The notes under the pieces: model-generated | What the model was told of the DNA's origin: nothing | Database searches by the model: none | What the model saw: only the letters and a program-made list of their open reading frames with translations | Part shown: one piece after another, positions 35,172 through 49,614 of the stretch | How the letters are laid out: each line of letters begins with the position of its first letter | Numbering within the stretch: the first letter of the stretch is position 1 | IMG/VR virus record: IMGVR_UViG_3300011116_000491 | Span: 1 to 49,614 of that record | Length of the DNA stretch: 49,614 bases | From: a virus | Strand: one strand, 5' to 3' | Translations under genes and position numbers: made by a program

Positions 35172-35179
35172 TATTTATC
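35172..35179 (-). promoter_or_regulatory. Late promoter GATAAATA, near-leaderless for gene 13
   Basis: Four A residues separate the octamer from the ATG. The predicted start site falls on the ATG itself. Confidence 0.65.
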
Positions 35180-36197
35180 CTAGTGCTATTGATAGCGCTA
35201 ATACATCACCAATTGTTGCACCACTTGTTGTTATTGCAGTATTTGTGACCGATGTTACTCTACCATATGCATCCGTTGTAATGACAGGAACATAAGAAGC
35301 ATTACCATATGTACCTGCCGTTCCTGTATTAGCAAGAGATACGATTGCAGTTCCATTTGAAGTTAATAATGCGCCAGTCGTATATGAGGCAGCATTAGTT
35401 CCGCCTTGTGCAAATGTATGAATGCCAGAAACAGCAGTTGCTGAGATTGAAATTGCTGTATTGACGATTGAAGAAACACGACCATTAGCAGCTAATGTTG
35501 TTACTGGAACAAAAGATGCATTACCATATGTGGTCGCAGTTGCAGAGATTGTTGTGTAATCTGTATTAGCAAATGCAGCATTGGCAAAAGAAGCACTATT
35601 TAATCCATCAAGTAAGTCAGCATCAAGACCTGAACCTAAACCATCGACAGTCAATAAACCTGCAAGAATTTGATTATTTGATACGGCACCAGTTGCGCCA
35701 GCAACAGAAGTTACAGCAGCCGATCCAGAAATTAAATTGGTGCTTACACCTGCACCAGCACCATTGGCCAAATCGATATAAACACCACGATTAGTACCAC
35801 CAGTCTCAAAAATTCTTATTCTATTTTGATAAACATCAATTGCAACAGAACCACCTGCAAGTGTTGTATTTGTTGCAGAAGTCGCTAAATCTAATTGACC
35901 ACCTTCATCGCCAGCTGATTGTGTTGATTTTAAAAGTGTAGTGCTTAATAAACCAGTAGTTTTATTAAATGTGAAGTTGGAATTGGAACCAAAAGAACCG
36001 GCATCGTTAAACTGAATTTCAGTTGTTAAACCGGAAGGCTGAGTAGTGCGAATCGAACCAAGAGTGTTCGATGAAGTTTTATAATAAAGAATACCATCGG
36101 CATAGTTAAGAGATAACTCACCGTTTGCGATAACACCGAGTGAAGGAGTTCTACTGGTTGTACCAGAACTGCGAATCGCAATGACTGTATTTGCCAT
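35175..36197 (-). CDS. Tail fibre-like structural protein (340 aa)
   Basis: This 340-aa protein is Ser-, Thr-, Ala- and Gly-rich with low complexity and fibre-type repeats such as GTYGNASYVPVITTDAYGRVTSVTNTAIT and GGTNAASYTTGALLTSNG, close to repeats in 36770-38383. It begins VIAIRSSGTTSRTPSLGVIANGELSLNYADG, a motif found at the N-terminus of phage fibres. Probably a trimeric fibre or neck whisker. It follows the coiled-coil gene by 2 nt. Confidence 0.8.
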   Translation of the reverse strand: MANTVIAIRSSGTTSRTPSLGVIANGELSLNYADGILYYKTSSNTLGSIRTTQPSGLTTEIQFNDAGSFGSNSNFTFNKTTGLLSTTLLKSTQSAGDEGGQLDLATSATNTTLAGGSVAIDVYQNRIRIFETGGTNRGVYIDLANGAGAGVSTNLISGSAAVTSVAGATGAVSNNQILAGLLTVDGLGSGLDADLLDGLNSASFANAAFANTDYTTISATATTYGNASFVPVTTLAANGRVSSIVNTAISISATAVSGIHTFAQGGTNAASYTTGALLTSNGTAIVSLANTGTAGTYGNASYVPVITTDAYGRVTSVTNTAITTSGATIGDVLALSIALG

Positions 36198-36199
36198 CT

Positions 36200-36736
36200 T
36201 TAGAACGATCCGCCATTAGCAATTTCTTTCAATGAAACATTATTTTGTTTTGGTGTTTTGTCAGTTACTTTTATCTCTTCAACATCTTCTTTTGGTGTGT
36301 CAATTGGTTCTAAACCTAATTTTTTTCTTTTTGAATTTGGCAACATGTCTTCCAGCTGTTTAACATATTCTGTTTTTGATTTGATTTCATCTTCAAAATT
36401 ACCAATGCGAGTTTTTAATTTTTCAATCTCTTGTGCTTGTGTGTTTAATGCAGTTTGAAGTCTATGTCTATCTGCATCAGCATTATTTGCACTTTCAATA
36501 AGTCTGTCTTTAGTTTGTATATCATCTTTCAAAACATCAATTTGATGTAAGCAATTATCTTTCTCATGCATCAAATCATCATATTTAATTGCTTTTTCTC
36601 TAAGAGAATCTAACTCATTTACCTGTTCTTGAAGAAATTTAATTTGTGTTTGAAACATAAAATTCTGTTTTAATACAGAATTAAAGTTGTCTAAAATTAC
36701 CTCATTGTAGGCATTTATAAAATTTACATCGGTCAT
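36200..36736 (-). CDS. Coiled-coil protein with C-terminal NGGSF (178 aa)
   Basis: Long helical heptads span residues about 20-130 (FLQEQVNELDSLREKAIKYDDL and later IEKLKTRIGNFEDEIKSKTEYV), followed by an acidic tail ending LKEIANGGSF. It is next to fibre genes and shares its C-terminal five residues with the fibre at 36770-38383. It could be a fibritin-like or assembly coiled coil. Family not recognised. Confidence 0.75.
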   Translation of the reverse strand: MTDVNFINAYNEVILDNFNSVLKQNFMFQTQIKFLQEQVNELDSLREKAIKYDDLMHEKDNCLHQIDVLKDDIQTKDRLIESANNADADRHRLQTALNTQAQEIEKLKTRIGNFEDEIKSKTEYVKQLEDMLPNSKRKKLGLEPIDTPKEDVEEIKVTDKTPKQNNVSLKEIANGGSF

Positions 36737-36769
36737 AATAAAACCCTTTCATAGTGTACCAATTATATA

Positions 36770-38383
36770 TTAGAAGCTTCCACCATTCAACATACCAAAT
36801 GTCGGAATGCCAGATGTGTTAATTTGTAAAACATGTCCTTCGGTTGAAGAAGCGACTGACAACAATGCAGAAGTCGAAGTTAAACCACCATAGATAACAC
36901 CGTTTGCAGTAAACGATGCAGAACCTGTACCACCTCTTGTTACACCCAATGTGCCAGAAGTAATTGCAGAAGTATCGATTGCGATTGCAGTATTCGTTAC
37001 AGCAGAGACACGACCATATGCATCAGTAGTAATAACAGGAACATAAGCAGCATTTGCGTAAGTACCAGCAGTACCAGTGTTTGCTAATGTTGCAAGTGAA
37101 GTTCCATTGTATGCAACAATACCATTTGTGAATGAAGTTTGGTTTGTACCGCCTCTTGCAATAGGTAAAGTACCTGATGTTACTTGACCAGCATCAATTG
37201 CGATAGCAGCACCGGTGTATGTAGTAATATCTCCATATGCATTGTATGTAATTGAAGAGATTGTGTTTGCAGTAGAAAGACCACCAGTTACAGTAGTTGT
37301 TGTGTTAGCAATAGAAACAAGGTTTGTACCATTGTAACCAACTCTTTGACCAGCAGTAAACGATGTTGCACCAGTACCACCATCTGAAACTCCAATTGCA
37401 GAAGCAAGACTTGAAACTGTACCACCAGTTAAGTTTGCACGAAGGGTAGCGGTGTTTGCAGCGGTTGCAGAACCTGTTGCAAGTGCGTTAGTTGTTGGGT
37501 CATTTGGAATGTTTTGAAACAAGAAGAAGTTGCCACCAGCTTGTTTAACAAGACCAGTATACTTTGTTGTGCCAGAAACATATTTACCAACGAAACCAAT
37601 ATCAATCGCATCAGCAGCATTATTTGCAGCTAATGTAATTAGAGAATCTTCTGTTCGAATTGTTTCAACATCTTGTGTGATTGTATTACCAGAAATAACC
37701 AAATTACCAGTAACTGCCAAATCACCAGAAATTGTTCCGCCTGTTGTTCTAACAACAGTAGCATCTACTGCAACACCGAATGTGTCAGTTCCATCAGTAA
37801 ATGTTGTTGTAATACCACCACCGTTTGTACCAACGATTGTTACTGTACCACCAGTTGAAGTAGTACCAGTGCCTGTATTACCCGCAAAGTTGAATGTTGT
37901 TGATAGTGCCACATTTGCAGCTGAAGTGATACGACCTTTTGCATCAACAGCAAAAGTAGGAATTTGTGTTGAACCACCATATGTTCCTGCTGTAACACCT
38001 GAGTTACCAAGTGTTAATGGAATATTTGCGTTTGCAGAACCATCGATAGAAACTGTTCCGTTGGCATCACCAGAGACACCAATCGTTCTTGCAGTTTGCC
38101 ATGCAGCCGCAGTATTTGCGTTACCATACAAAGATGCTCTAACTGCCGTTGCAGAGAATATACCTGATGCATCTCTTTTAACAATCGCAGAAGCAGTATT
38201 CGCATCAGTAGCTGCATCGATTAAACCGGTATAGTATGAACCACCAATGGCAACAATAGAACCACTGCTTAAACCAATGAACAACTTGTTAGAGTTATTT
38301 GAGTAAGCGGTTTCACCTTGTGCAAGTGATACTGGCGTTGCTGTGGCGTTGGAATACTTTAACTGAATTGTAGTATTTGCCAT
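36770..38383 (-). CDS. Repetitive tail fibre-like protein (537 aa)
   Basis: This 537-residue protein has an N-terminal module TIQLKYSNATATPVSLAQGETAYSNNSNKLFIGLSSG typical of marine phage fibres, then many repeats (GGTNQTSFTNGIVAYNGTSLATLANTGTAGTYANAAYVPVITTDAYGRVSAVTNTAI). It ends in GMLNGGSF. The repeats suggest a long trimeric beta shaft. Strong AAGGAA precedes the ATG. A long plus-strand open frame across it is a shadow. Confidence 0.85.
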   Translation of the reverse strand: MANTTIQLKYSNATATPVSLAQGETAYSNNSNKLFIGLSSGSIVAIGGSYYTGLIDAATDANTASAIVKRDASGIFSATAVRASLYGNANTAAAWQTARTIGVSGDANGTVSIDGSANANIPLTLGNSGVTAGTYGGSTQIPTFAVDAKGRITSAANVALSTTFNFAGNTGTGTTSTGGTVTIVGTNGGGITTTFTDGTDTFGVAVDATVVRTTGGTISGDLAVTGNLVISGNTITQDVETIRTEDSLITLAANNAADAIDIGFVGKYVSGTTKYTGLVKQAGGNFFLFQNIPNDPTTNALATGSATAANTATLRANLTGGTVSSLASAIGVSDGGTGATSFTAGQRVGYNGTNLVSIANTTTTVTGGLSTANTISSITYNAYGDITTYTGAAIAIDAGQVTSGTLPIARGGTNQTSFTNGIVAYNGTSLATLANTGTAGTYANAAYVPVITTDAYGRVSAVTNTAIAIDTSAITSGTLGVTRGGTGSASFTANGVIYGGLTSTSALLSVASSTEGHVLQINTSGIPTFGMLNGGSF

Positions 38384-38406
38384 TTTATTTCCTTGTTATT
38401 ATTATT

Positions 38407-38655
38407 TTAAAATAGTCCACCATTTACATTGGTGATATTGTTTGCGTCTAAAGTAAATGTTTGAGATTCGTATTTACCTGTAGCGGCATTGTAAATTAAT
38501 GCCTGTCCATTTACAGAGTTGGCAACATCTACATTTGTTAAATCACCAAGAGCAACATTTGATGCTGGTCTAACAGAAACAGTTGCAACCGTTTTGTTAG
38601 AAGGTTTTAATGCAACTGTTGCCGCTGGGGTGTTTATTATAGTTACTGTTGCCAT
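38407..38655 (-). CDS. Small structural protein ending NVNGGLF (82 aa)
   Basis: An 82-residue Ala-, Thr- and Val-rich protein. Its second half, VANSVNGQALIYNAATGKYESQTF, is the fibre-type motif seen in phage tail proteins. It shares its stop and start region with the 110-aa gene upstream. Its C-terminal NGGLF parallels the NGGSF of the next two genes. Probably a fibre component. Confidence 0.75.
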   Translation of the reverse strand: MATVTIINTPAATVALKPSNKTVATVSVRPASNVALGDLTNVDVANSVNGQALIYNAATGKYESQTFTLDANNITNVNGGLF

Positions 38656-38987
38656 TATCTCGTAACTGATGGTAGAACTGTTGCGATACCCTCAACAACT
38701 CTTGTTTTAACATTTGCAGGGCTTGTAATAAGCAAATCATAAACATATCGACCTGGTGTTATGTTAGCTGTATTTGCCGCTGTCATAGACATAGTAATTT
38801 CACCATTAGCCGCATTACTAACGACTACTGTAAAACTATTTGCTGTGGATGAATAGTATGACTTGCGAATCTGAGATGCACAAGTATAAGAAGTTAAATT
38901 TTGGGGAGAACCAGATGCATCATTTACAGTTATTGTTGTCGAATAACTAGCGCCTTGTTCTATCGTTAATTCTGCAAAACCAGCCAT
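38655..38987 (-). CDS. Ig-like/BppU-like baseplate or fibre protein (110 aa)
   Basis: A beta-rich protein starting GFAELTIEQGASYSTTITVNDASGSPQNLTSYTCASQIRKSYYSS, with the pattern of the N-terminal BppU-like domain (a beta sandwich found in phage receptor-binding assemblies), and a C-terminal YDLLITSPANVKTRVVEG strand pair. GAGGG precedes the ATG and a late-like octamer is upstream. Confidence 0.75.
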   Translation of the reverse strand: MAGFAELTIEQGASYSTTITVNDASGSPQNLTSYTCASQIRKSYYSSTANSFTVVVSNAANGEITMSMTAANTANITPGRYVYDLLITSPANVKTRVVEGIATVLPSVTR

Positions 38988-39010
38988 TATGCCCTCTTTT
39001 GTTTATTGTC

Positions 39011-39018
39011 TATTTAGT
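39011..39018 (-). promoter_or_regulatory. Late-promoter-like ACTAAATA upstream of 38655-38987
   Basis: Octamer in the gap after the terminator; predicted leader about 18 nt, including GAGGG. Confidence 0.55.
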
Positions 39019-39040
39019 CAATCTAGGTATTATGGAAACA

Positions 39041-39066
39041 AAAAACCCCACCGAAGTGGGGTTTTC
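39041..39066 (-). terminator. Rho-independent terminator with TTCG loop
   Basis: ACCCCAC and GTGGGGT pair around a TTCG loop on the minus strand, flanked by A-run and U-run. It ends the transcript of the first 116-aa cassette. It could act in both directions. Confidence 0.88.
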
Positions 39067-39083
39067 TTTAACTATTATGTTTG

Positions 39084-39434
39084 TTATTCTACTGAATCCC
39101 AAGACTGTGTGGATTCGTTCCATTTGTAACCTTCACCATTACTATTTGGGTGAGGAACTGGTGCTTCCCATAAACATGTAGTCTCATTTAAGACCCAAGA
39201 ATTAAATTCTTTTGGTGGTATAAATGCATCTCTTTGTGCATCGTATGTGTAACCGACCCCAGCAAAATTTTTTCTTAATGGTGTGCCACCTAGAATATGA
39301 ACACCACCTCTTGTGTTATATGAAGTTTGAATCCAATTTCCAGGTTCAGTATCTACAAATGAATTGATATAATCTTCATCTGCAACGATTACTTTTAAAA
39401 CTCTACCTTGGTCTACTTTTGCGTAATGTGCCAT
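39084..39434 (-). CDS. Fibre-associated 115-residue family, copy 1 (116 aa)
   Basis: A 116-residue protein starting MAHYAKVDQGRVLKVIVADEDY, with WIQTSYNTRGG, GTPLRKNFAGVGYTYDAQRDAF and a C-terminal YKWNESTQSWDSVE. Two close paralogues lie at 40991-41338 and 46364-46711. The family is common in T4-like cyanophages; its function is not known. Each copy directly follows (in transcription) a glycine-rich fibre gene, here 12 nt away, suggesting a chaperone, tip protein or adhesin partner. It is rich in Trp and Tyr. Confidence 0.82.
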   Translation of the reverse strand: MAHYAKVDQGRVLKVIVADEDYINSFVDTEPGNWIQTSYNTRGGVHILGGTPLRKNFAGVGYTYDAQRDAFIPPKEFNSWVLNETTCLWEAPVPHPNSNGEGYKWNESTQSWDSVE

Positions 39435-39446
39435 ATATTTTCTCTA

Positions 39447-40688
39447 TTAAGCGGTATAAGTGCCTGTACCAGTAAATGTCAAAACAGTATTCGCACCGTT
39501 TGTTGTAACTGTAACTGCTGGGGCAGGAGAATATGTTCCTGTATAGAGTGCAGTTGCAACAGAAATATATCCAACACCAGAACCACCACTTCCACCGTTA
39601 CCAGTAGTACCACTATATGACCCACCACCACCGCCACCACCGCCAGTATTGGTTGTTCCTGTCATCAGAGGAGCAGGAGAACCAGAAGTGTTGTATCCTT
39701 CACCACCGCCATAACCTTTACCAGTTGATGGGGCTGGATTTGTTGGTGATGGATAATTTCCATAACTTCCACCTGCAGCACCACCACCGCCACCGCCTGC
39801 AACATTAGTTGGTGTGCCTGTTAAACCTACTGTAACACCAATGCCACCGTTACCACCATAATTAGGTGCTGGTGAATTTGCAGGATTTCTGTCACCAGTT
39901 TGTCCTACAGCACCGGCACCACCGCCGCCGCCACCACCTTCAGTTGCACCGGCACCGCCATTGAATCCTTGACCTGGAGTTCCAGAACCCGCAGAGCCAC
40001 CTGGTGTTCCACCGCCACCGCCCGAACCTCCTGGTCCACCAGCGGAAGTTGGTGAACTATAACCCGCTCTAGCACCATAACCGCCAGCCGTTGCTGTTAT
40101 GGTTGATAATCCTGAACCAGTAATAGTTGATGGATTACCGACATAACCAGCTGCACCACCACTACCAACGGTTACTGTGTATGTTGTCCCACTTACAAGA
40201 GTTGTTGTGCCTGAAACATAACCTCCTGCACCACCGCCACCCGCCATAACACCAGGACCTGATGGTGAACCACCACCTCCACCAGCAACTAATGCGTATG
40301 TTGCAATAATTGGTGCTTGTTTAACTGTTGTCCAATTTCCATTTAAATAAGCTTCAAATGAAAGAGTTGTTGAATTGTATCTTATCATACCATCAGTTGC
40401 AGACGATGGTCTCTGTGCAGTAGTTCCTGATGGGATAGTTAAAGACCCCGTGCTACTAATTATTGTATTTCCGTATAGTGTTGCATTTGGAACAATTTGT
40501 GAACTTGCAATGTTGCCTGTAATCTGTGTATTAGCAACTGAAGTAATCTGTGAACTGATAATATTGCCAGTAATCTGAGTATTGGCAATAGACACAATTT
40601 TAGCTGCTGTGATTGTACCATCAGCAATATCGGCTGCTACAACTGCGTTGTTTGCGATTGCTGCTGAATTTATTCTAGATAATGGCAT
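39447..40688 (-). CDS. Glycine-rich tail fibre protein, copy 1 (413 aa)
   Basis: N-terminal fibre module SAAIANNAVVAADIADGTITAAKI with repeated NTQITGNIISSQI, a short IPSGTTAQRPSSATDGMIRYN module, then from about residue 135 a glycine-rich domain (GGGGGSPSGPG, VSGTTYTVTVGSGGAAGYVG). The Gly-rich domain resembles those with polyglycine-helix cores in phage adhesins. The ATG lacks a Shine-Dalgarno; a late octamer is five bases upstream. Likely receptor-binding. Confidence 0.83.
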   Translation of the reverse strand: MPLSRINSAAIANNAVVAADIADGTITAAKIVSIANTQITGNIISSQITSVANTQITGNIASSQIVPNATLYGNTIISSTGSLTIPSGTTAQRPSSATDGMIRYNSTTLSFEAYLNGNWTTVKQAPIIATYALVAGGGGGSPSGPGVMAGGGGAGGYVSGTTTLVSGTTYTVTVGSGGAAGYVGNPSTITGSGLSTITATAGGYGARAGYSSPTSAGGPGGSGGGGGTPGGSAGSGTPGQGFNGGAGATEGGGGGGGAGAVGQTGDRNPANSPAPNYGGNGGIGVTVGLTGTPTNVAGGGGGGAAGGSYGNYPSPTNPAPSTGKGYGGGEGYNTSGSPAPLMTGTTNTGGGGGGGGSYSGTTGNGGSGGSGVGYISVATALYTGTYSPAPAVTVTTNGANTVLTFTGTGTYTA

Positions 40689-40693
40689 GACTT

Positions 40694-40701
40694 TATTTAT
40701 T
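40694..40701 (-). promoter_or_regulatory. Late promoter AATAAATA, leaderless spacing
   Basis: Exactly five bases separate the octamer from the ATG of the glycine-rich fibre at 39447-40688, placing the start site on the A of the ATG. Confidence 0.72.
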
Positions 40702-40975
40702 CTCTATTCTGTTTAAAATACTCTATGCACTCTGCAATTGTTTGTTGTCTAACATACTCATCTCTAATTTCTCTAGAGGTTGGTGGTTCAAGATAACATT
40801 GTTTCTCTTCTGACCATTGGTTTTCTTCCCAATGGGTAATAATAAAATCACCACCTCTTGCTTCTAACTGATACAAACATCCTGGTCTTAAAATACCCAT
40901 TACGGAATTTAAACCCCAAGAAAAACCATGTTCATTAGTTAGTGCTTCTATTGTCTTCTCTACACTCAAACTCAT
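40697..40975 (-). CDS. Small protein of unknown function in the fibre module (92 aa)
   Basis: A 92-residue protein starting MSLSVEKTIEALTNEHGFSW with SREIRDEYVRQQTIAECIEYFKQ near the end. It is charged and mixed alpha-beta, unlike the low-complexity fibres around it. It sits between cassette copy 2 and copy 1. No family recognised. Confidence 0.72.
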   Translation of the reverse strand: MSLSVEKTIEALTNEHGFSWGLNSVMGILRPGCLYQLEARGGDFIITHWEENQWSEEKQCYLEPPTSREIRDEYVRQQTIAECIEYFKQNRE

Positions 40976-40990
40976 AATTAATTTCCTATT

Positions 40991-41338
40991 TTATTCTATT
41001 GCATCCCAAGATTGTGTGGTTTCGTTCCAATTATATACTTTTCCATCATCAGGCATTGATGTTGGTGCTTCCCATTGGCAGGTATCTTCATTTAATGTCC
41101 AAGATGGATATGGTTTAGGTGCATAAAAAGCATCTCTTTGTCTATCGTAGGTGTAACCAATCGCAGCAAAGTTTTTTCTTAAAGGAACACCACCAGCATT
41201 ATGTTGACCAGCTAATGTGTTAAATGATGTTTGAACCCAATCTTCAGAATCTTCTAAACTAAAAATGTGTGCTTGTGTAGCAACAATAACTGCTTCAACA
41301 ATATTTGTTTGTTTGTTTACTTTTGCAAAATGCGCCAT
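40991..41338 (-). CDS. Fibre-associated 115-residue family, copy 2
   Basis: Paralogue of the proteins at 39084-39434 and 46364-46711: MAHFAKVNKQTNIVEAVIVATQ, WVQTSFNTLAGQHNAGGVPLRKNFAAIGYTYDRQRDAFYAPKPYPSWTLNEDTCQWEAP, and YNWNETTQSWDAIE. It lies 13 nt after the glycine-rich fibre at 41352-42575. Differences among copies are concentrated at the N-terminus and around residues 45-50, hinting at partner-specific surfaces. Confidence 0.82.
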   Translation of the reverse strand: MAHFAKVNKQTNIVEAVIVATQAHIFSLEDSEDWVQTSFNTLAGQHNAGGVPLRKNFAAIGYTYDRQRDAFYAPKPYPSWTLNEDTCQWEAPTSMPDDGKVYNWNETTQSWDAIE

Positions 41339-41351
41339 AAAATTCTCTTAA

Positions 41352-42575
41352 TTAAGGTGTAGTATATCTAACAATAACAATACCAGAACCACCTGCAGCA
41401 CCAGCTGAAGCAGGAGGAGCATTCGGAGAGTTTCCTCCACCACCGCCACCTGAACCTGTATTTGTTGTTCCCGCAGTTGCAGCAGTTCCAAAATTTGGAC
41501 CAGAACTTCCGCCTGTGCCGCCAATGCTTGATCCGCCAGCGGCACCAAATCCACTATCTACTGCGCCTGCACCACCGCCCCCAGCATAATACGCTGGTGA
41601 TCCAGATAATGAGTAAGCTAAACCAGCTCCGCCTGTTCCAGTAGCACCAGCTTGTGGTCCAGTTCCTGCTGTTCCTGCAGCACCGGCTCCACCGCCACCG
41701 CCTGCTTTGTAACTTCCTGCGCCTGCTGCGGGACCACCAGAATTACCATATCCTGTTCCGCCACCTGAAGGTGATTGTGTTGCTGAACCGCCTGTACCTG
41801 GACCGCCTGCGCCACCGCCAGATCCGCCAGGTGCACCATTATTATTTGCTGGTGCTGAACCACCTGCGCCACCACCAACAGCTGTTATACTACCAAATAC
41901 AGATGGATTTCCTGGATTTTGTGTTGTTGAACCAGCGCCAGCTGAAGCTCCACCAGAACCAACTGTTACAGTATAATTTCCAGAAGTCAATGTTAGTCCA
42001 GAATGATATACTAATCCACCGGCGCCGCCTCCGCCTCCTCTATCCCAAGCTCCAGCGCCACCACCAGCAACAACTAAAACTTCAGCTGAAATTGTTCCAC
42101 TAAGAACAGTAAGAGTGCTAGAAGATGTGAAGGTGTGAATTGTATAACTCCCAGCAGTTGTCATTGTACCACCAATTGCTGAAAATACACCAACACCAAG
42201 CCAAACGGAATTATTTGCATCCCAATATTCAATAGCGTTTCTTGTAGAATTAAATCTGATATATCCAGCACTATTCGATGTTGGCCTTTGTGCAGTAGTA
42301 CCAGTAGCAATCTTAGTAAAACCTGTGCCACTAACTGTTAAGTTGCCATTAAGTGTTTGGTCTGGTGCAATCTGAGAACTAATGATGTTACCAGTAATCT
42401 TTGTGTTTGCAACAGAAAGAATCTTATCATTCGTAATTGCAGTAGCACCAATAGAGTTTGCAACATCGATACCTGTTGTATTAGCAGTAAATAAAGTTGT
42501 GCCAGTATTAGAACGAATAGTAAAACTATTATCGGTATCTGTTGTTATATTGCTGACGATTAATGTTCCGGCCAT
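41352..42575 (-). CDS. Glycine-rich tail fibre protein, copy 2 (407 aa)
   Basis: N-terminal module AGTLIVSNITTDTDNSFTIRSNTGTTLFTANTTG, then SVANTKITGNIISSQIAPDQTLNGN and GTTAQRPTSNSAGYIRFN, and a glycine-rich C-terminal 240 residues (GGGGAGGLVYHSG, YTVTVGSGGAS). The middle module is nearly the same as in copy 3, including a 90-bp DNA repeat. It ends in GSGIVIVRYTTP. A probable receptor-binding fibre. Confidence 0.83.
   Translation of the reverse strand: MAGTLIVSNITTDTDNSFTIRSNTGTTLFTANTTGIDVANSIGATAITNDKILSVANTKITGNIISSQIAPDQTLNGNLTVSGTGFTKIATGTTAQRPTSNSAGYIRFNSTRNAIEYWDANNSVWLGVGVFSAIGGTMTTAGSYTIHTFTSSSTLTVLSGTISAEVLVVAGGGAGAWDRGGGGGAGGLVYHSGLTLTSGNYTVTVGSGGASAGAGSTTQNPGNPSVFGSITAVGGGAGGSAPANNNGAPGGSGGGAGGPGTGGSATQSPSGGGTGYGNSGGPAAGAGSYKAGGGGGAGAAGTAGTGPQAGATGTGGAGLAYSLSGSPAYYAGGGGAGAVDSGFGAAGGSSIGGTGGSSGPNFGTAATAGTTNTGSGGGGGGNSPNAPPASAGAAGGSGIVIVRYTTP
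42325..42414 (-). repeat. 90-bp imperfect direct repeat, copy in glycine-rich fibre 2
   Basis: Aligns without gaps to 47701-47790 (13 mismatches counted by hand). It encodes the shared ANTxITGNIISSQIAPDQTLNGN module. Such repeats permit recombination between fibre genes. Confidence 0.85.
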
Positions 42576-42597
42576 ATTTCTCTCTTAGTTAATATTC

Positions 42598-42605
42598 TAT
42601 TTATC
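42598..42605 (-). promoter_or_regulatory. Late promoter GATAAATA upstream of glycine-rich fibre 2
   Basis: Octamer overlaps the end of the previous gene; predicted leader about 17 nt with AAGAGAG. Confidence 0.62.
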
Positions 42606-43692
42606 AGCGGGCGTTACTAAACTTAAAGGGCGCTTCGGCAAATGCCATATATATGTAATTTGATGATGACTCATTTGAATTGGATCCAGATGACCGTATT
42701 TTGAATCCATTGCTTAAATAATCAATAAAGTTACCTTCAAATGATCCTGCGCTAACTTGAGGTTCAAGACTAGTTAAATTTGCCGCTAAAGTTGCGTAAT
42801 TACTTGCGTTGTATGTTTCACGACTTGTGTCTTGCATCAACCAATTTGAATTTGTTGAATTGCTAGTTTTTTTCAACATCAAAAATCTAGGTCTAAACCC
42901 CGTGTAGATGAATGGTCCATCAGTAGACCCGTTACCCGTGTATGACCCAAAGGTTGAATACCCTGCTACTGCGGCAAAGAAATAACCAACATAAGTGCCA
43001 CCATTTAAGTTGCAGTTGTCGGTAGTTCCTAGAGACATTACAGTCGAAGTTGGTGCTGTGTTGTTCCAAATGTCTGAGAATGTCTGTTTTGCTTCTGTTG
43101 TATTTAAATACAAAGCAGAGGTTGCTGTCATAGACACATGGTATACAAGCCAATTAGAACCGCTTGTGCTTCTTCTTTTAATGATTGCCATACTAGGCGC
43201 AACACCAAGTCCATGCCCAATTGTTGCCGCCACACCTGTGCCTGTATAAGTAACAACACTAAATCCAGCAGTTGGGTTTGCAGATACTTGTGATGAAATT
43301 GTACCACTAGTATTTGTTACTGCTGTGCCGCCTGCTTTCCATGTCCATCCAACATAAGTATCACCAGATTTATTCCAATTATCAAAAGTTGATGTTCCAT
43401 TTGTTACTGTAAAACCACCAGAATCTAAAGAAGATAACCAACCATATAAAGATTCTGTATTGGCAGGATTAGGTTCTGCGCCAGTAGAATTTGATGCAAG
43501 AACTTTATTTTGTCCAACACCACGAACAGAATCTAGTAATTGATGATTTGTGCCAGAAGTTCTAGCTTTTTCCCAAATTAAATCTGGTTGAAAGTTTAAT
43601 CCTGTGATTGACCTTGTTGCACCAGAAGAACCGCCAGTGCCTGACCAAGTTAATACATCAAAATGTTGATTTGGTAAATTGATTGCTGGCAT
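42604..43692 (-). CDS. DUF7483-like tail fibre/adhesin (362 aa)
   Basis: A beta-rich protein starting FDVLTWSGTGGSSGATRSITGLNFQPDLIWEKARTSGTNHQLLDSVRG, a pattern repeated in its second half (YTGTGVAATIGHGLGVAPSMAIIKRRSTSGSNWLVYH, and YTGNGSTDGPFIYTGFRPRFLMLKKTS). These are internal repeats of one beta domain. The type is common in marine phages and metagenomes (DUF7483), with no assigned function; a surface-binding fibre is likely. It is 3 nt from the lectin-like gene. Confidence 0.82.
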   Translation of the reverse strand: MPAINLPNQHFDVLTWSGTGGSSGATRSITGLNFQPDLIWEKARTSGTNHQLLDSVRGVGQNKVLASNSTGAEPNPANTESLYGWLSSLDSGGFTVTNGTSTFDNWNKSGDTYVGWTWKAGGTAVTNTSGTISSQVSANPTAGFSVVTYTGTGVAATIGHGLGVAPSMAIIKRRSTSGSNWLVYHVSMTATSALYLNTTEAKQTFSDIWNNTAPTSTVMSLGTTDNCNLNGGTYVGYFFAAVAGYSTFGSYTGNGSTDGPFIYTGFRPRFLMLKKTSNSTNSNWLMQDTSRETYNASNYATLAANLTSLEPQVSAGSFEGNFIDYLSNGFKIRSSGSNSNESSSNYIYMAFAEAPFKFSNAR

Positions 43693-43694
43693 GA

Positions 43695-45119
43695 TTATGG
43701 CAGATTAAAAGTGTTGAGAGATTTGAAGCCGGATGGTGGGGTGTAGGAGAATGGGCGTTGACCAAAATTAGCTACCCAAGCGCCTGTATTGTTGTATATT
43801 GAAACAGCTGGTAAAAATGTTGTTTCTGATCCAGAGTAAGTAAATAATGCGTTTGTTCCAGAAGATGGATTTCCTACACCACCAGCAGCAGTATTCCAAG
43901 TTCCATTTTGTCCAACCCACATTTTCTTAGCATCAGCATCATATGCAATCATAATTGTTGCACTTGATGTAAATGCTGGAGCAGTTCCACTAGAAGCCCA
44001 ATTTCCACCAACATAATAATTTCCTGTTGAAGTATTATAACCCCATCCAGCACTATCTCCTAAACCACCAACATAATTATTAAAAGTGGATATAGAACTA
44101 GGAATAACACCAATAATATCCACATTAGAGGAATTATTAACTACAGCTTCCCAATACCATTTTCCAGTTGTCATACCCATAGTTCCAACAATAGCTCTAT
44201 GACTAGCTTCAACACCACCATTATTTACTGATAAATTGCCACTAGTAGTAACTAGATTTGATCCTTTTGCTAATGGATTCCAAGTGCAATAATTACTTGC
44301 AGCTGCACTTCTTGTTGGTGAATCAATCATTGCATCATAAGTCACACCAGAAGTCACAGAGATATTGTTTGGTGTCCAGTTGTTTCCGTTACCAGAAGAA
44401 TCTTTACCAATTGCAGCAGCCGTTGCAGCTGATGCATCTGCAAACTTTAAATAGAATCCGTTTGTGCCGTAAGTGCCTGCAAACTTTTTAGGAACCCATT
44501 GACCTGTTCCGTTATCTGTTTTACCAAATGAAGATGGAGTTAATGCTTGGCCATCGATGAAGTTGATTTCGGTTAGGTAGCCGTCTGAATATACTGAATC
44601 AAGATTGTTGCCACCAAGAAAATGTATGTTTGTGTTGTTGACATAACTATCAAAATTTAACGAACAATCAACAGAAGAACTAAATGAAGTTACCTGTGAT
44701 CCATTTACAAACAGTTTTGTTCTATTTGATGCAGTTGCTTGTGTTGTGTCCAACACAGCGACAATGTGATACCAAGCAGACGGGTCCCGATAGACAGCCG
44801 TTGTCTGTCTTCGGTACGAATCAACACCACCATTTTGTCCAAAGAAGTAGATGGTATCGTCAGAATTCCAACGAATCATATCGTAATTTGAACCATTGTT
44901 GCGCCCCATAAAAAGATGTTGATTTGAACCTAGTGAACCTCGTTTAACCCATGCGCTCCATGTCCAAGTCTTGCGATTAGTTGCGCTTGCAGGAGTTCTA
45001 TTCAAATAACCACTTGCACTACTACGGAATCTCAAACTATTCTTAATAAAATAGCCTAAGTTGGCTTGACCGCCATATTGTTTTACACTACCACCACCAG
45101 TTGTACCAAGAAAAGGCAT
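43695..45119 (-). CDS. LamG/concanavalin-like lectin and SPRY-like tail protein (474 aa)
   Basis: The N-terminal domain (residues about 30-220) has the LamG/concanavalin pattern NRKTWTWSAWVKRGSLGSNQHLFMG, AWYHIVAVLDTTQ and LFVNGSQVTSF. The C-terminal domain has TTGKWYWEAVVNNSSNVDIIGV and AYDADAKKMWVGQNGTW, an SPRY-like pattern. Two carbohydrate- or protein-binding domains on one chain suggest receptor binding. It ends FSYTPPSGFKSLNTFNLP, typical of this marine phage family. Confidence 0.85.
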   Translation of the reverse strand: MPFLGTTGGGSVKQYGGQANLGYFIKNSLRFRSSASGYLNRTPASATNRKTWTWSAWVKRGSLGSNQHLFMGRNNGSNYDMIRWNSDDTIYFFGQNGGVDSYRRQTTAVYRDPSAWYHIVAVLDTTQATASNRTKLFVNGSQVTSFSSSVDCSLNFDSYVNNTNIHFLGGNNLDSVYSDGYLTEINFIDGQALTPSSFGKTDNGTGQWVPKKFAGTYGTNGFYLKFADASAATAAAIGKDSSGNGNNWTPNNISVTSGVTYDAMIDSPTRSAAASNYCTWNPLAKGSNLVTTSGNLSVNNGGVEASHRAIVGTMGMTTGKWYWEAVVNNSSNVDIIGVIPSSISTFNNYVGGLGDSAGWGYNTSTGNYYVGGNWASSGTAPAFTSSATIMIAYDADAKKMWVGQNGTWNTAAGGVGNPSSGTNALFTYSGSETTFLPAVSIYNNTGAWVANFGQRPFSYTPPSGFKSLNTFNLP

Positions 45120-45129
45120 TATCTATTCC

Positions 45130-45888
45130 TTATGCGTATTGGGTCTGTGAACCTAATACTGTGTATGTATTTGCTGCTGTCTTAATAATTGTGAAAGCAT
45201 ACAAGTCGATTGATGTAGCATTACCCGCAGATGGTGCAGTACCACCTTGCCATTTTGGTGTAACAGAAGTTCCATCGATTTGCATTGCAGATTGATAGTA
45301 AGTATTTGAAGACAACTGAGTTGCCAAATAAGCAACAGTCATACTCTCACCAGTTGACATTATTGCATCTAGTCTTATGGATGAGTTTGCACGGACATTC
45401 ATAGTCCAGTTAGCTGCATTGTTAGCAGTATAATAGTTAATTGAATTTTCAAGCACATTAATGTTTTGTGTGCCAGTTAATGCAGTTGCAGTAATGTTTG
45501 CATTTTCAATTACTGAACCAATATCAATACCTGTATTGAATGTAAATGCCTTGGTTGTATTTGACCAAGTCAATGTTTTGTTGGTAGAACCCTTAATTGT
45601 GATACCTGCACCATCTGCAAGAGCATCAGTAGGAGTAGCAGAGTTGGCAATCTCAATGTTCTTATCTGACACAACAAGAGTAGTTGTATTAACAGTAGTT
45701 GTTGCACCTGATACAGTTAAGTTACCACCGATAGTTGCATCACCAGTTGTATTGAATGTTGATTGCACATTCATTGGCACGGCAACATTCCATGATGCAC
45801 CGCCTACGGTGATGTAGGTTGTCTCACCAATATTAAGTTTTAACTGTGATTCACCTTGTATGGTGTCTGCTTTAATTTTTCCTGCCAT
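45130..45888 (-). CDS. Tail fibre-like structural protein (252 aa)
   Basis: Starts MAGKIKADTIQGESQLKLNIG and contains TVSGATTTVNTTTLVVSDKNIEIANSATPTDALADGAGITIKGSTNKTLTWSN, a widespread marine T4-like fibre module. The C-terminal half, YYTANNAANWTMNVRANSSIRLDAIMSTGESMTVAYL, is a distinct globular domain. Likely a trimeric fibre segment; precise role unknown. Confidence 0.82.
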   Translation of the reverse strand: MAGKIKADTIQGESQLKLNIGETTYITVGGASWNVAVPMNVQSTFNTTGDATIGGNLTVSGATTTVNTTTLVVSDKNIEIANSATPTDALADGAGITIKGSTNKTLTWSNTTKAFTFNTGIDIGSVIENANITATALTGTQNINVLENSINYYTANNAANWTMNVRANSSIRLDAIMSTGESMTVAYLATQLSSNTYYQSAMQIDGTSVTPKWQGGTAPSAGNATSIDLYAFTIIKTAANTYTVLGSQTQYA

Positions 45889-45906
45889 TTTAGATTCTCT
45901 TTAAAA

Positions 45907-46329
45907 TTAAAATACTGTAAAGGTTGAGTTATTGCTAACCATTAGTGTGACATTATTTGCAATGGTAATCGGACCAGCCGCACTTGCATTATAACCATCA
46001 CTAATTGTTGTATTTGTTGTTAGTGTTTGTGGATTAATTCTGATTAATCCGTATGTATCTGCTGACAGATAAGGTGTTGTTACTACTGAACCACCAAGGT
46101 AAATAACTTCAACATTGTCTGTGCCACTTGGTGGTGCAGTTGAAAAAACTATTTGACCATTGATTACTGCATAGGAATCAGTCTTTTGTTTAACACCAGT
46201 GATAAAGACTAATACGGATGCTTCATTGCCATATTCATATGACAAATTGAAAGTTGTGGCTGCTCCTGTTCCTGAAAAGAACTGACTTCTAATTGCACCA
46301 CTTACCGGGGAATTTCCAATATATGACAA
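45907..46329 (-). CDS. Fibre-type structural protein (140 aa)
   Basis: Begins MSYIGNSPVSGAIRSQFFSGTGAATTFNLSYEYG, a common N-terminal module of marine phage fibres and tail proteins, followed by VEVIYLGGSVVTTPYLSADTYGLIRINPQTL. Short, beta-rich, probably trimeric. AGGAAA precedes the start and a late-like octamer lies upstream. Confidence 0.82.
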   Translation of the reverse strand: MSYIGNSPVSGAIRSQFFSGTGAATTFNLSYEYGNEASVLVFITGVKQKTDSYAVINGQIVFSTAPPSGTDNVEVIYLGGSVVTTPYLSADTYGLIRINPQTLTTNTTISDGYNASAAGPITIANNVTLMVSNNSTFTVF

Positions 46330-46351
46330 TTTGTTTTCCTAAGTTATTCTT

Positions 46352-46359
46352 TATTTAGT
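46352..46359 (-). promoter_or_regulatory. Late-promoter-like ACTAAATA upstream of 45907-46329
   Basis: Octamer in the gap after cassette copy 3; predicted leader about 17 nt. Confidence 0.55.
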
Positions 46360-46363
46360 TGAG

Positions 46364-46711
46364 TTATTCTACTACATCCCAAGACTGTGTGGATTCATTC
46401 CAACCATACATTTTATCATCTTGTGGTTTTGCAGTTGGTGCTTCCCATAACCAAGTTGTTTGATTTAATGTCCAAGATGGATAAGGTTGAGGTGCATAGA
46501 ACACATCATGTTCACGGTCGTATGTGTAACCAACACCAGCAAAATTGCCTCTTAATGGAGTACCACCATTTAAGTGTTGATTACCTTTTGTATTATATGA
46601 AGTTTGAATCCATTCCCCAGGTTCAGTATCAATGAATGTATCAAAGAATTCTGATTCAGCTACAATAACCTTAATTACTTTATCTCTATCTACTTTTGCA
46701 AAATGTGCCAT
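46364..46711 (-). CDS. Fibre-associated 115-residue family, copy 3
   Basis: Third paralogue: MAHFAKVDRDKVIKVIVAESEFFDTFIDTEPGEWIQTSYNTKG, GTPLRGNFAGVGYTYDREHDVFYAPQPYPSWTLNQTTWLWEAP, YGWNESTQSWDVVE. It lies 10 nt after the glycine-rich fibre at 46722-47933. It is closest in its first half to copy 1 and in its second half to copy 2. Confidence 0.82.
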   Translation of the reverse strand: MAHFAKVDRDKVIKVIVAESEFFDTFIDTEPGEWIQTSYNTKGNQHLNGGTPLRGNFAGVGYTYDREHDVFYAPQPYPSWTLNQTTWLWEAPTAKPQDDKMYGWNESTQSWDVVE

Positions 46712-46721
46712 CTAAAATTCC

Positions 46722-47933
46722 TTAAGCCGTAAATGTGCCAGAAGTTGTAAAAGTATGAATTGTATTTCCTGATGAAGATGATACAGTACCTCCACTTCCC
46801 TTTTGGACTCCGCTGTATGAAATAATAACAATTCCTGAACCACCAGAACCAGCACCAGTTGAAGAAGCTTTTCCGCCACCGCCACCGCCGCCAGTATTGG
46901 TTGTTCCTGGAGTGCCTGCGCCAGTGCCAGGACTTGCAGGATTTCCACCAACGCCACCACCACCTGGACCACCAGATGTTGGAGCAACATAGTTTCCAGA
47001 ACCTGAACCTCCACCAGCATATGTTACTGCTGAACCACTAAGTGATGATGCAACACCTACTCCACCACCTCCACCAACACCCGATGGAGCTGTAGGTGAA
47101 TTTGTAGCATTTCCGCCTACTCCACCTGCGCCGCCGCCACCGCCACCGCCTTCCCAAACTCCAGGAAAATGAGCTCCTGATCCACCAGCATAACCTTGTC
47201 CAGGAGTTCCACTACCACCAGGATAAGGTGTGCTATTATTAACTGAACCGCCGCCACCGCCAGACCCTCCAGGACCGCCAGGAAATCCAGTTCTTCCACC
47301 ACCTCCACCACCTGTTGCTGTGACACTCAAAGGTGATCCAATTGATGACGGTGAACCAGAAGATGCATAAGTTCCAGGTGTTGATGATGAATCGCCTGTC
47401 GCACCAGCACCAATAGTTACACTATATGTTTGTAATGGTATAACGGTAGTTGTTCCAGTAACTAATCCTCCAGCACCACCAGCACCGCCAGAATTAAGTC
47501 CAACACCACCTGCTCCACCACCTGCAACAATTAAATAATTGATTGTGTATAAAGCTGCTGTCAGGTTGAAAGAAGTCCACAATCCATTAGTTGCATCGTA
47601 CCACTCAGGATATCCTAGATTAGTGTTAAAACGAACATATCCTGCTGTATTTGAAGTTGGTCTTTGTGCAGTAGTGCCGGATGGTAGTTTTAAGAATCCT
47701 GTACCACTAACTGTTACATTACCATTAAGTGTTTGGTCTGGTGCAATCTGCGAACTGATAATGTTACCAGTGATTAAAGTATTTGCAACACTCAATGCAT
47801 TGTTCGATGCGCCAGTGATAACACCATTGCTATCGAATGTCAACGAAATGGTGTTAGCAGAACCACCAACGGTAACTGATGTTATATTATTCGATACTTG
47901 GAATAATGCCGGAGATACACGGGTTAAAGCCAC
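46722..47933 (-). CDS. Glycine-rich tail fibre protein, copy 3 (403 aa)
   Basis: GTG start at 47933 (ALTRVSPALFQVSNNITS) with AGGA eight bases upstream, inside the end of the HNH gene. The middle module SVANTLITGNIISSQIAPDQTLNGNVTVSGTGF and SGTTAQRPTSNTAGYVRFN matches copy 2. The glycine-rich domain covers about residues 137-370. It ends with GTVSSSSGNTIHTFTTSGTFTA. Copy 2 carries a similar stretch (AGSYTIHTFTSSSTLTV) before its Gly-rich domain, so this block has been shuffled. Confidence 0.83.
   Translation of the reverse strand: MALTRVSPALFQVSNNITSVTVGGSANTISLTFDSNGVITGASNNALSVANTLITGNIISSQIAPDQTLNGNVTVSGTGFLKLPSGTTAQRPTSNTAGYVRFNTNLGYPEWYDATNGLWTSFNLTAALYTINYLIVAGGGAGGVGLNSGGAGGAGGLVTGTTTVIPLQTYSVTIGAGATGDSSSTPGTYASSGSPSSIGSPLSVTATGGGGGGRTGFPGGPGGSGGGGGSVNNSTPYPGGSGTPGQGYAGGSGAHFPGVWEGGGGGGGAGGVGGNATNSPTAPSGVGGGGGVGVASSLSGSAVTYAGGGSGSGNYVAPTSGGPGGGGVGGNPASPGTGAGTPGTTNTGGGGGGGKASSTGAGSGGSGIVIISYSGVQKGSGGTVSSSSGNTIHTFTTSGTFTA
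47701..47790 (-). repeat. 90-bp imperfect direct repeat, copy in glycine-rich fibre 3
   Basis: Partner of 42325-42414, gap-free alignment with 13 mismatches counted by hand. Confidence 0.85.
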
Positions 47934-48628
47934 GATTGAATCCTATTATTTTTTGATTTAGTTGTATAACCAGAAGACTTTAATTCTTGCCATTGTTTGA
48001 TAGCATGTTGTTTCATTTTTTGACTATAATCTTCTGTTAAATGTTTTCTACTTGTACCTTTTGTCCAACCGTTCAAAAGATAATCACTAATTTTTTCGTA
48101 TGTTACCTTAGTTTGAATTCCATTTCTATTCATCCAAATTTTAGGAACATGATTTGCTTTTTTACTAGCAATCATTTTTTGTTTATGTTCTTCACTCATT
48201 GGTCCACGAACAATACCTTTTAGTTTTTCTGAAAGATTTTTCTTGTGTTCTTTGGTCCATCTTTGAGTTTCACTAACATATTTAGAACACTTGATTTTAG
48301 CTGTCTCATATAAACGAGAATTCATATATCTATTGTCTGTGTTATGTCTACTCATCATTGTGGTAGCTTTCAACATCATTCCATAACCTTTAGAATTGTA
48401 TTCAAACATTCTATACAATAACATATGAGCAATAAAATGTTTTCTGGCACTTAATTTAACTATGTTCCATTTACATTTTGCAAATTCTGGATACAAACTT
48501 TTTGGTAAAATATGGTGTCTTTCGACATAATCATCGTTGCAATCTTTTGAAACTAGTTCCATATACCATTTAGAATATTTGTTATCTAAAAATGGTTTAT
48601 GATTGTCAATAGCTTCCTTTAATGCCAC
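47924..48628 (-). CDS. HNH homing endonuclease (234 aa)
   Basis: GTG start at 48628. The HNH core is VERHHILPKSLYPE (H38, H39) and NIVKLSARKHFIAHMLLYRMF, a standard family pattern, followed by a NUMOD3-like basic segment (RGPMSEEHKQKMIASKKAN) that would contact DNA. It is free-standing and overlaps the start of the fibre gene by 10 nt. The bases around its own start are almost the same as those around the fibre start. Domains appear intact. Confidence 0.9.
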   Translation of the reverse strand: MALKEAIDNHKPFLDNKYSKWYMELVSKDCNDDYVERHHILPKSLYPEFAKCKWNIVKLSARKHFIAHMLLYRMFEYNSKGYGMMLKATTMMSRHNTDNRYMNSRLYETAKIKCSKYVSETQRWTKEHKKNLSEKLKGIVRGPMSEEHKQKMIASKKANHVPKIWMNRNGIQTKVTYEKISDYLLNGWTKGTSRKHLTEDYSQKMKQHAIKQWQELKSSGYTTKSKNNRIQSWL

Positions 48629-48652
48629 GATGTGTTCTCTCTATTAATCTTT

Positions 48653-48660
48653 TATTTATT
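48653..48660 (-). promoter_or_regulatory. Late promoter AATAAATA upstream of the HNH gene
   Basis: Octamer at the end of the previous gene; leader about 20 nt with GAGAGAA. It may be the original promoter of the fibre gene now behind the endonuclease. Confidence 0.6.
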
Positions 48661-48931
48661 AAGGCTTTGGATACTTAGCTTTAACTGCTTGGCAAGCCGC
48701 AATATAAGCATCAATCTGTGATTGGTCACCTTTGACTACACCATCAAGGTAATCTGTGATTGGTGGGTACTCGGCTTGGCGTTTCTCTATGTAGGCATGA
48801 GCATCAATGTATGCTTGAACTGTTGCTTCGTTATAGGTAACAATATTTCCTTGAGCATCGTAGGCTACATCATCATCAATAACCTTGACAACATTTGGAT
48901 ATAAAGAAAATATAGCTTTTGCTTTAATCAT
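48659..48931 (-). CDS. Small tail-module protein, XkdW-like (90 aa)
   Basis: Starts MIKAKAIFSLYPNVVKVIDDDVAYDAQGN and ends QIDAYIAACQAVKAKYPKP. The pattern (a short beta hairpin region followed by helices with YIEKRQAEYPPITDYLDGVVK) resembles the XkdW-like family linked to phage tail fibres. It overlaps the upstream fibre gene by 4 nt, so co-translation is likely. Role unknown. Confidence 0.75.
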   Translation of the reverse strand: MIKAKAIFSLYPNVVKVIDDDVAYDAQGNIVTYNEATVQAYIDAHAYIEKRQAEYPPITDYLDGVVKGDQSQIDAYIAACQAVKAKYPKP

Positions 48932-49614
48932 GCTGAAATCTCCATGACGGTAATAGATGACATACTACGAGAAGAATAAGCATTATTCGCATCGCCACTT
49001 GCATAATTAATATAATATGTGCCTGAGCCAGCGCCACTATCACAATATGCTTGAATCTTATATGTAGTGGATGATGTTGTTGCTGGAGAATCTAAAAATT
49101 GATTCATCATCATTGTTGTTCCGTTAGCATTACTTGGAATAGCCGCATTTCCCGCACTTACCTGTTGCCTAGAACCGTCAGCATTACCAACGCCAACAAC
49201 AGTTGCGCCACGCAAAATTCTGAAATATAAATTATTTTCTCCATCACAATTTACAACAAAAGAAACTAATATTTTGCTACTAGCACTTGTTGGAGTAATT
49301 GATACTGATAATGAAGTCACATCAGCCCATGCTGATGTACCACTAACCGCCTGAGTACCAGTAAGAGTGGCTTGCACCACTTGCAACACAGTACCCGTTG
49401 GTAATCTAGTTTTTGGTAATGTACCAGAAGTAACTAAACTAGCATTAGCAGAACCAATTTGTGCAGCTTCAATTAAACCAGTCAACTGAGTGTTAGCCAC
49501 CGATGTAATCTGTGAACTAATGATGTTACCAGTAATAGCAGTATTAGCGACTGACACAATATCAATCGCTGACACCGCACCGTCTTGTATAATACCACTT
49601 GTAATTTTTTGAAT
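48928..49614 (-). CDS. Tail fibre-like protein, N-terminus beyond window
   Basis: The frame is open to the right edge: 13 codons before the first possible GTG at 49575 read IQKITSGIIQDGAVSA, matching the start of the fibre at 39447-40688, so the gene continues outside. The visible C-terminal 229 residues contain SVANTAITGNIISSQITSVANTQLTGLIEAAQIGS, then a beta-rich domain (LSVSITPTSASSKILVSFVVNCDGENNLYFRILRG) common in phage and environmental fibres. It shares the ITGNIISSQI module with the Gly-rich fibres. Confidence 0.8.
   Translation of the reverse strand: MQKITSGIIQDGAVSAIDIVSVANTAITGNIISSQITSVANTQLTGLIEAAQIGSANASLVTSGTLPKTRLPTGTVLQVVQATLTGTQAVSGTSAWADVTSLSVSITPTSASSKILVSFVVNCDGENNLYFRILRGATVVGVGNADGSRQQVSAGNAAIPSNANGTTMMMNQFLDSPATTSSTTYKIQAYCDSGAGSGTYYINYASGDANNAYSSRSMSSITVMEISA

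Follow-up and report, generated by a model that had tools for sequence, protein, structure and literature searches.

Three gene pairs in a DNA fragment of a T4-like marine phage (IMG/VR record IMGVR_UViG_3300011116_000491, positions 1 to 49,614, hereafter the window; at 49.6 kb an incomplete genome) probably each encode a tail fibre that binds the host receptor, together with a folding chaperone dedicated to that fibre; the two genes constitute one cassette. The probability of this reading is put at roughly 0.74. All three fibres were assigned to the Pfam family PF21722 (Gly_rich_2), and all three small partners, encoded by the gene that follows, to the protein family phrog_7759. An earlier annotation made from the DNA letters (the original prediction) had described three pairs of equal gene order and short spacing, and all six open reading frames (ORFs) were confirmed at their positions on the minus strand, with fibre-to-partner gaps of 10, 13 and 12 nt in pairs 1, 2 and 3, respectively, each including a Shine-Dalgarno-like GGAA or GAGAA motif. 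With conserved families, Pfam and PHROG matches and large-scale linkage, the observation of cassettes is far above chance.

Linkage of the partner family to glycine-rich fibres

The pairing was observed directly in wider phage sets; contigs of close relatives seldom span the array region. When viral contigs were scanned with no query but the partner, an unbiased set of 80 loci was obtained, 79 of them with an upstream gene. The partner was located directly after a glycine-rich fibre gene in 76 of these 79 (96%), in comparison to 56 of 951 other genes (5.9%) and to 5 of 164 other genes in a size-matched control (90–135 aa); the scanned loci are mutually related, so the Fisher significance of the linkage is merely indicative. 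Among named phages, 14 of 17 partners directly followed a glycine-rich fibre, and the carriers include phages of SAR11, OM43 (Methylophilales), roseobacters and Synechococcus. Contigs from bacterial genomes served as an independent set: 28 of 40 partners were directly adjacent there, and several of the others were truncated or had one ORF in between.

Phages phiPsal1 and Greip were apparent exceptions, in which a glycine-rich ORF does lie upstream of the partner, though it is labelled otherwise in the records. In phiPsal1 (MG835450; locus L088, 3012–3908) the 298 aa glycine-rich fibre ORF is called as other small ORFs, and Greip gp59 (L093, 2–421), annotated as “gp10-like DNA stabilization protein”, has a C-terminal glycine-rich adhesin-type domain; both are probable misannotations. 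In S-MS29 and P-RSM4 the glycine-rich ORF was found further upstream, with carbamoyltransferase, oxygenase and ferrochelatase genes intervening before the partner, and genes of the auxiliary metabolic type intervene likewise in L063. According to the original prediction, regular occurrence of the partner without a glycine-rich neighbour would speak against the pairing. Such occurrence was mostly not seen, the exceptions being loci with DUF7483 fibres together with S-MS29, P-RSM4 and L063.

Across the loci with intervening genes (L095, 3262–3882; L169, 9567–10175; L063, 5445–8026; S-MS29; P-RSM4), annotated 2-oxoglutarate-Fe(II) oxygenase or oxygenase-like ORFs, sulfotransferase- or kinase-like ORFs and ferrochelatase sit between fibre and partner. 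These genes are possibly fibre- or surface-modifying cargo.

The reverse count was based on 106 fibres with a GG(S/T)GIV(V/I)IRY end. For 53 of them the partner was the next gene, 18 stood in tandem runs closed by one partner, 8 had a partner within 4 kb, and 4 had one elsewhere on the locus. The tandem runs suggest that one chaperone can serve several tips. Examples of two or three glycine-rich fibres in tandem, for which there is often just one partner, are CRP-143 (L085, 2949–6727) and pelagiphage-like loci such as L112, L130 and L163.

Exchange of tip and partner in Melnitz phages

Co-exchange of fibre end and partner was observed directly in Melnitz-2 and Melnitz-3, which are nearly identical phages isolated on the same host (PMC9004378). 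The two genomes agree at 99.8% of positions until a breakpoint within the fibre gene 175, about 290 nt past the gene start. From there on, the Melnitz-2 fibre ends in a glycine-rich C-terminus and a phrog_7759 gene comes next, whereas Melnitz-3 has a C-terminus that is not glycine-rich, and no partner. Identity returns at 98.6% and breaks again 3 kb on, just past the start of gene 181, where the situation is reversed. Since both breakpoints separate presence from absence of the two elements, tip and partner co-differ at two places in these genomes. Covariation of fibre and partner gave Mantel values of 0.42 for the glycine-rich part and 0.32 for the N-part of the fibre, and the class of the fibre C-end was uninformative, as it clusters no less well by N-part than by partner.

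Predicted structures

The tip of fibre 2 and partner 1 were modelled with AlphaFold2 from alignments of 85 fibre tips and 98 partners, with a mean pLDDT (predicted local distance difference test) of 92.3 and 95.3, respectively. The model of the 115-residue partner is nearly all beta, with one 4-residue helix. A sequence search of PDB returned nothing significant for fibre or partner. The top structural match of the fibre tip in PDB was strong, namely 7ypx_A, which is gp24 of cyanophage Pam3 (E-value 4.2e-5, probability 1.00), followed by tail-tip proteins of Bxb1 and, weakly, by the glycine-rich domains of ALK and LTK. For the partner, the top match among 350,542 PDB chains was the weaker 7ypx_a (probability 0.57), the other listed matches having a probability of 0.06 or less. 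This chain was taken as the Pam3 chaperone gp25 because it comprises 162 residues, which is the length of gp25.

Pam3 gp24 and gp25 form a solved 3:3 complex of a glycine-rich fibre and its chaperone (PDB 7YPX), in which gp25 is needed for a good yield of soluble fibre and is not detected in virions (PMC9608196). That separate searches with the two modelled halves of the cassette met both members of one solved complex is the strongest structural argument. Two features of a Pam3-type pair were seen in the window, namely a beta-sandwich with a glycine-rich distal domain in the fibre, and a small gene adjoining it. For a third, the N-terminal beta-sandwich fold of the chaperone, the observation is the weak top match of partner 1 to 7ypx_a.

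Proposed function and alternative explanations

According to the chaperone reading, the beta-sandwich and glycine-rich domain at the fibre end would form the host-contacting tip, and the 115-residue protein, translated from the next cistron, would bind the nascent tip, keep its glycine-rich loops from misfolding and aid the register of the three chains. It would then probably be released, as gp25 is in Pam3. Each partner would serve one fibre and be tailored to its tip, so that tip and chaperone would be exchanged jointly as a single cassette, and the phage would carry three such cassettes amid the other fibre genes of its host-recognition region.

Several observations weigh against this reading. 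The match of partner 1 to 7ypx_a is weak when taken alone (E-value 0.82, TM-score 0.36 (TMq)), the partner model is devoid of the C-terminal alpha-helical trimerisation domain of gp25, and profile comparison of the partner with Tfa by hhalign gave a probability of 0.3%, i.e. no detectable similarity. At three loci (L202, L309 and L310) the gene immediately ahead of the partner encodes a DUF7483 fibre, and the contig segment contains no glycine-rich ORF; the DUF7483 fibre is thus a possible second type of client. Conversely, 23 of the 106 glycine-rich fibres had no partner on their locus, and gp183 of Melnitz-3 is a glycine-rich fibre with no adjacent partner. Finally, covariation along the fibre was weak, and the noisy sliding-window scan was not used as evidence.

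The same DUF7483 loci could indicate that the partner is a general tail-fibre accessory factor, whose position after glycine-rich tips reflects the history of the cassette, not a dedicated client. The 18 fibres in runs of two or more closed by a single partner, and the separation of the partner from the fibre by several genes in S-MS29 and P-RSM4, point the same way. Such a factor is nevertheless unlikely, since 96% of the partners in the unbiased set adjoin a glycine-rich fibre where the background is 6%, and since tip and partner are jointly gained and lost in Melnitz.

Similarly unlikely is that the three pairs are an array for switching or widening of host range on alternative or mixed fibres. 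The original prediction had raised such widening or switching, which is compatible with the chaperone reading. In its favour, the three tips are divergent (34–50% identity at non-glycine positions) and lie in a hypervariable host-recognition region. However, the four Melnitz variants, which carry differing cassettes, have the same published host range on three OM43 strains (PMC9004378); therefore, cassette exchange took place there with no visible change of host range on those strains. Features of a Mu-type invertible switch were not found in the window: inverted repeats in the array region were imperfect and widely spaced, none of them convincing, and no invertase was present among the genes scanned, although a recombinase could lie at a distance, the fragment being 49.6 kb. 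Switching is not indicated for these two reasons.

The original prediction had left “chaperone or tip” as the role of the small protein. A cap or distal tip that stays on the virion and contributes to receptor binding has precedents, as Mu Tfa remains at the fibre tip and the chaperones of Alteromonas phages A5 and V22 may be transient caps (PMC10579305); the gene order is alike, and the partner is small and all-beta. This role is likewise unlikely. Conservation is higher in the partner (62%) than at the non-glycine positions of the tip that it would decorate (39%), a contrast to be expected of a chaperone but not of a receptor-contacting tip. Moreover, the fibre already bears a receptor-type tip as its own C-terminus, and gp25, the structural relative, is missing from Pam3 virions. 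Of the two roles, the adhesive tip is not supported, and the dedicated chaperone is favoured by the 76/79 linkage, the joint swap in Melnitz and the matches to 7YPX. That the small gene is a passive neighbour hitch-hiking with an unrelated function, as a handful of loci might imply where the contig segment has the gene but lacks a glycine-rich fibre, is very improbable given the adjacency across phages of many kinds and hosts, the Melnitz co-swap, and the way in which fibre and partner each matched their counterpart in the same solved complex.

The chaperone reading may extend further. Tentatively, phrog_7759 could represent a separate, minimal, single-domain, all-beta class of fibre chaperone with no trimerising helices. 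It would be specific to glycine-rich tips and serve in tailed phages that infect SAR11, OM43, roseobacters and cyanobacteria, and the present phage would display its three tips together on each virion; we consider this extended view possible rather than probable.

A dedicated chaperone would provide a testable function for a widespread family for which no Pfam model, NCBIfam model or PHROG functional annotation was found. Many marine phages, among them isolates infecting SAR11, OM43, roseobacters and marine cyanobacteria, have fibres annotated as “hypothetical”, and in these the glycine-rich tips would be the part that probably binds the receptor. Should the pairing prove obligatory, these fibres would need co-expression of the partner for their study, and the receptors of some of the most abundant bacteria in the ocean could then be tested directly.

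Cassette layout and genomic setting

All three fibres exceed the curated Pfam cut-off of PF21722 (24.3 bits), and the phrog_7759 matches of the three partners are full-length (profile positions 1–121 of 125). The partners are 59–63% identical to each other, in agreement with the original prediction that they are paralogues; a length of 115 residues applies to two of them, the third having 116. The glycine-rich domains are pairwise 50–61% identical, and 34–50% at non-glycine positions. In the N-terminal fibre modules, previously described as homologous, the shared part spans about 70 aa (SVANTxITGNIxSSQ...GTTAQRP; direct repeat D6, 170 nt), and the first ca. 45 aa differ.

The “triplicated” cassette of the original prediction stands as three cassettes within one region, which are not a contiguous tandem array, as four other fibre-region genes separate pair 1 from pair 2, with an ORF of 92 aa between the second pair and the third. 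In the partner tree, the trio of window partners groups with a support of only 33, and window partner W1 is up to 73% identical to partners of other phages, as close as to its paralogues. On these comparisons, a common origin of the three pairs by recent triplication appears neither supported nor excluded.

Table 1. Cassette genes, neighbouring features and loci with DUF7483 fibres (positions in the window unless a locus is named).
Feature	Coordinates	Strand	Length	Matches	Remarks
Fibre 1	46722..47933	-	403 aa	PF21722, E 9.1e-16, 59.0 bits; phrog_2295, E 8e-51	variable N-part, GTTAQRP module, Gly_rich_2 domain (aa 121-373), C-terminal extension with end ...NTIHTFTTSGTFTA
Partner 1	46364..46711	-	115 aa	phrog_7759, E 5.2e-30	proposed fibre 1 chaperone
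Fibre 2	41352..42575	-	407 aa	PF21722, E 3e-20, 73.6 bits	GTTAQRP module, beta-sandwich and glycine-rich domain, end ...GSGIVIVRYTTP
Partner 2	40991..41338	-	115 aa	phrog_7759, E 3.8e-31	proposed fibre 2 chaperone
Fibre 3	39447..40688	-	413 aa	PF21722, E 2.2e-10, 41.4 bits; phrog_2295	SVANT repeats, GTTAQRP module, glycine-rich domain, C-terminal extension with end ...TVLTFTGTGTYTA
Partner 3	39084..39434	-	116 aa	phrog_7759, E 2.2e-34	proposed fibre 3 chaperone
Small ORF	40697..40975	-	92 aa	no Pfam or PHROG match	between partner 2 and fibre 3
DUF7483 fibre-type gene	42604..43692	-		PF24299, E 1e-113	directly upstream of fibre 2
Host-recognition region (tail-fibre island)	35175..49614	-			upstream of neck genes; houses all three pairs
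DUF7483-partner loci	L202 7773-9223; L309 2960-4339; L310 2918-4366				

The 92 aa ORF (40697–40975) has the pattern LRPxxxxxL...W...PPTxxEI (LRPxAxW motif, as judged by eye only), and similar-looking small ORFs adjoin phrog_7759 genes in S-MS29, P-RSM4, L140 and L325.

By its portal, sheath, capsid and neck genes, the phage is a T4-like myovirus and kin to marine cyano- and pelagimyophages. In pelagimyophages, a hypervariable host recognition cluster is situated at the corresponding place upstream of the neck genes (PMC7029224). Relatives are up to 90% identical across the neck and sheath region, and the similarity (blastn) ends at about 35.2 kb, i.e. at the edge of the host-recognition region. 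Beside the cassettes, an HNH homing endonuclease gene (phrog_655; 47924–48628) shares 10 nt with the start of fibre 1. A different pair of a fibre and a 90 aa small gene (48659–48931 with 48928–49575, overlapping by 4 nt) matched phrog_6942 with phrog_9114/2687, and its 90 aa protein resembles Melnitz proteins annotated as “tail assembly chaperone”. Downstream of pair 3, a 110 aa gene (38655–38987) produced weak matches to LtfC, the assembly protein of the L-shaped tail fibre in phage T5 (phrog_3304; PF23926 below cut-off).

Comparison with known fibre-chaperone and adhesin systems

Fibre-chaperone cassettes are already known as a kind. The partner family and its steady association with glycine-rich tips across aquatic phages appear to be undescribed in the literature searched, in which no paper was found for PF21722 or phrog_7759 by name. 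The partners returned no Pfam or NCBIfam match.

The adhesin gp38 of Salmonella phage S16 and of T2 likewise is a glycine-rich receptor-binding tip; Pam3 gp24 reportedly resembles the S16 protein (PMC9608196). However, the S16 adhesin is a separate protein on the fibre, whereas the tip in the window is the fibre's own C-terminus. The small partner was rejected as a separate adhesin of the gp38 type, since it is not glycine-rich and the glycine-rich domain belongs to the fibre C-terminus.

Membership in the Tfa/Caudo_TAP family (PF02413) was rejected, as none of the 98 partner-family members matched PF02413 at E<1; within the window record, the array region had no PF02413 match, either. Like Tfa and Mu U, the partner gene is located directly behind the fibre, is of a similar size class and is swapped along with the fibre C-terminus, as S/U and S′/U′ are in the joint swap of fibre end and chaperone by the Mu G segment. 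It differs from Tfa in having neither sequence or profile similarity nor the helical C-terminal domain. With Pam3, the cassettes share a TNF-like beta-sandwich that bears a distal glycine-rich domain, and a small adjoining gene, whereas gp25 has 162 aa, a helical trimerisation domain and a Tfa-like sequence, and the window partner is a nearly all-beta protein of 115 aa. As it has neither trimerisation helices nor detectable similarity to Tfa, the partner should be classed neither as a Tfa protein nor as an orthologue of gp25.

In the marine Alteromonas phage V22, the fibre gp26 needs the small downstream chaperone gp27 for receptor binding (PMC7289586), in likeness to the proposed cassettes; gp27, of 21.8 kDa, is assigned to another family, DUF4376. 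In order, size and spacing, the cassettes match these known fibre-chaperone operons, i.e. Mu S-U and V22 gp26-gp27.

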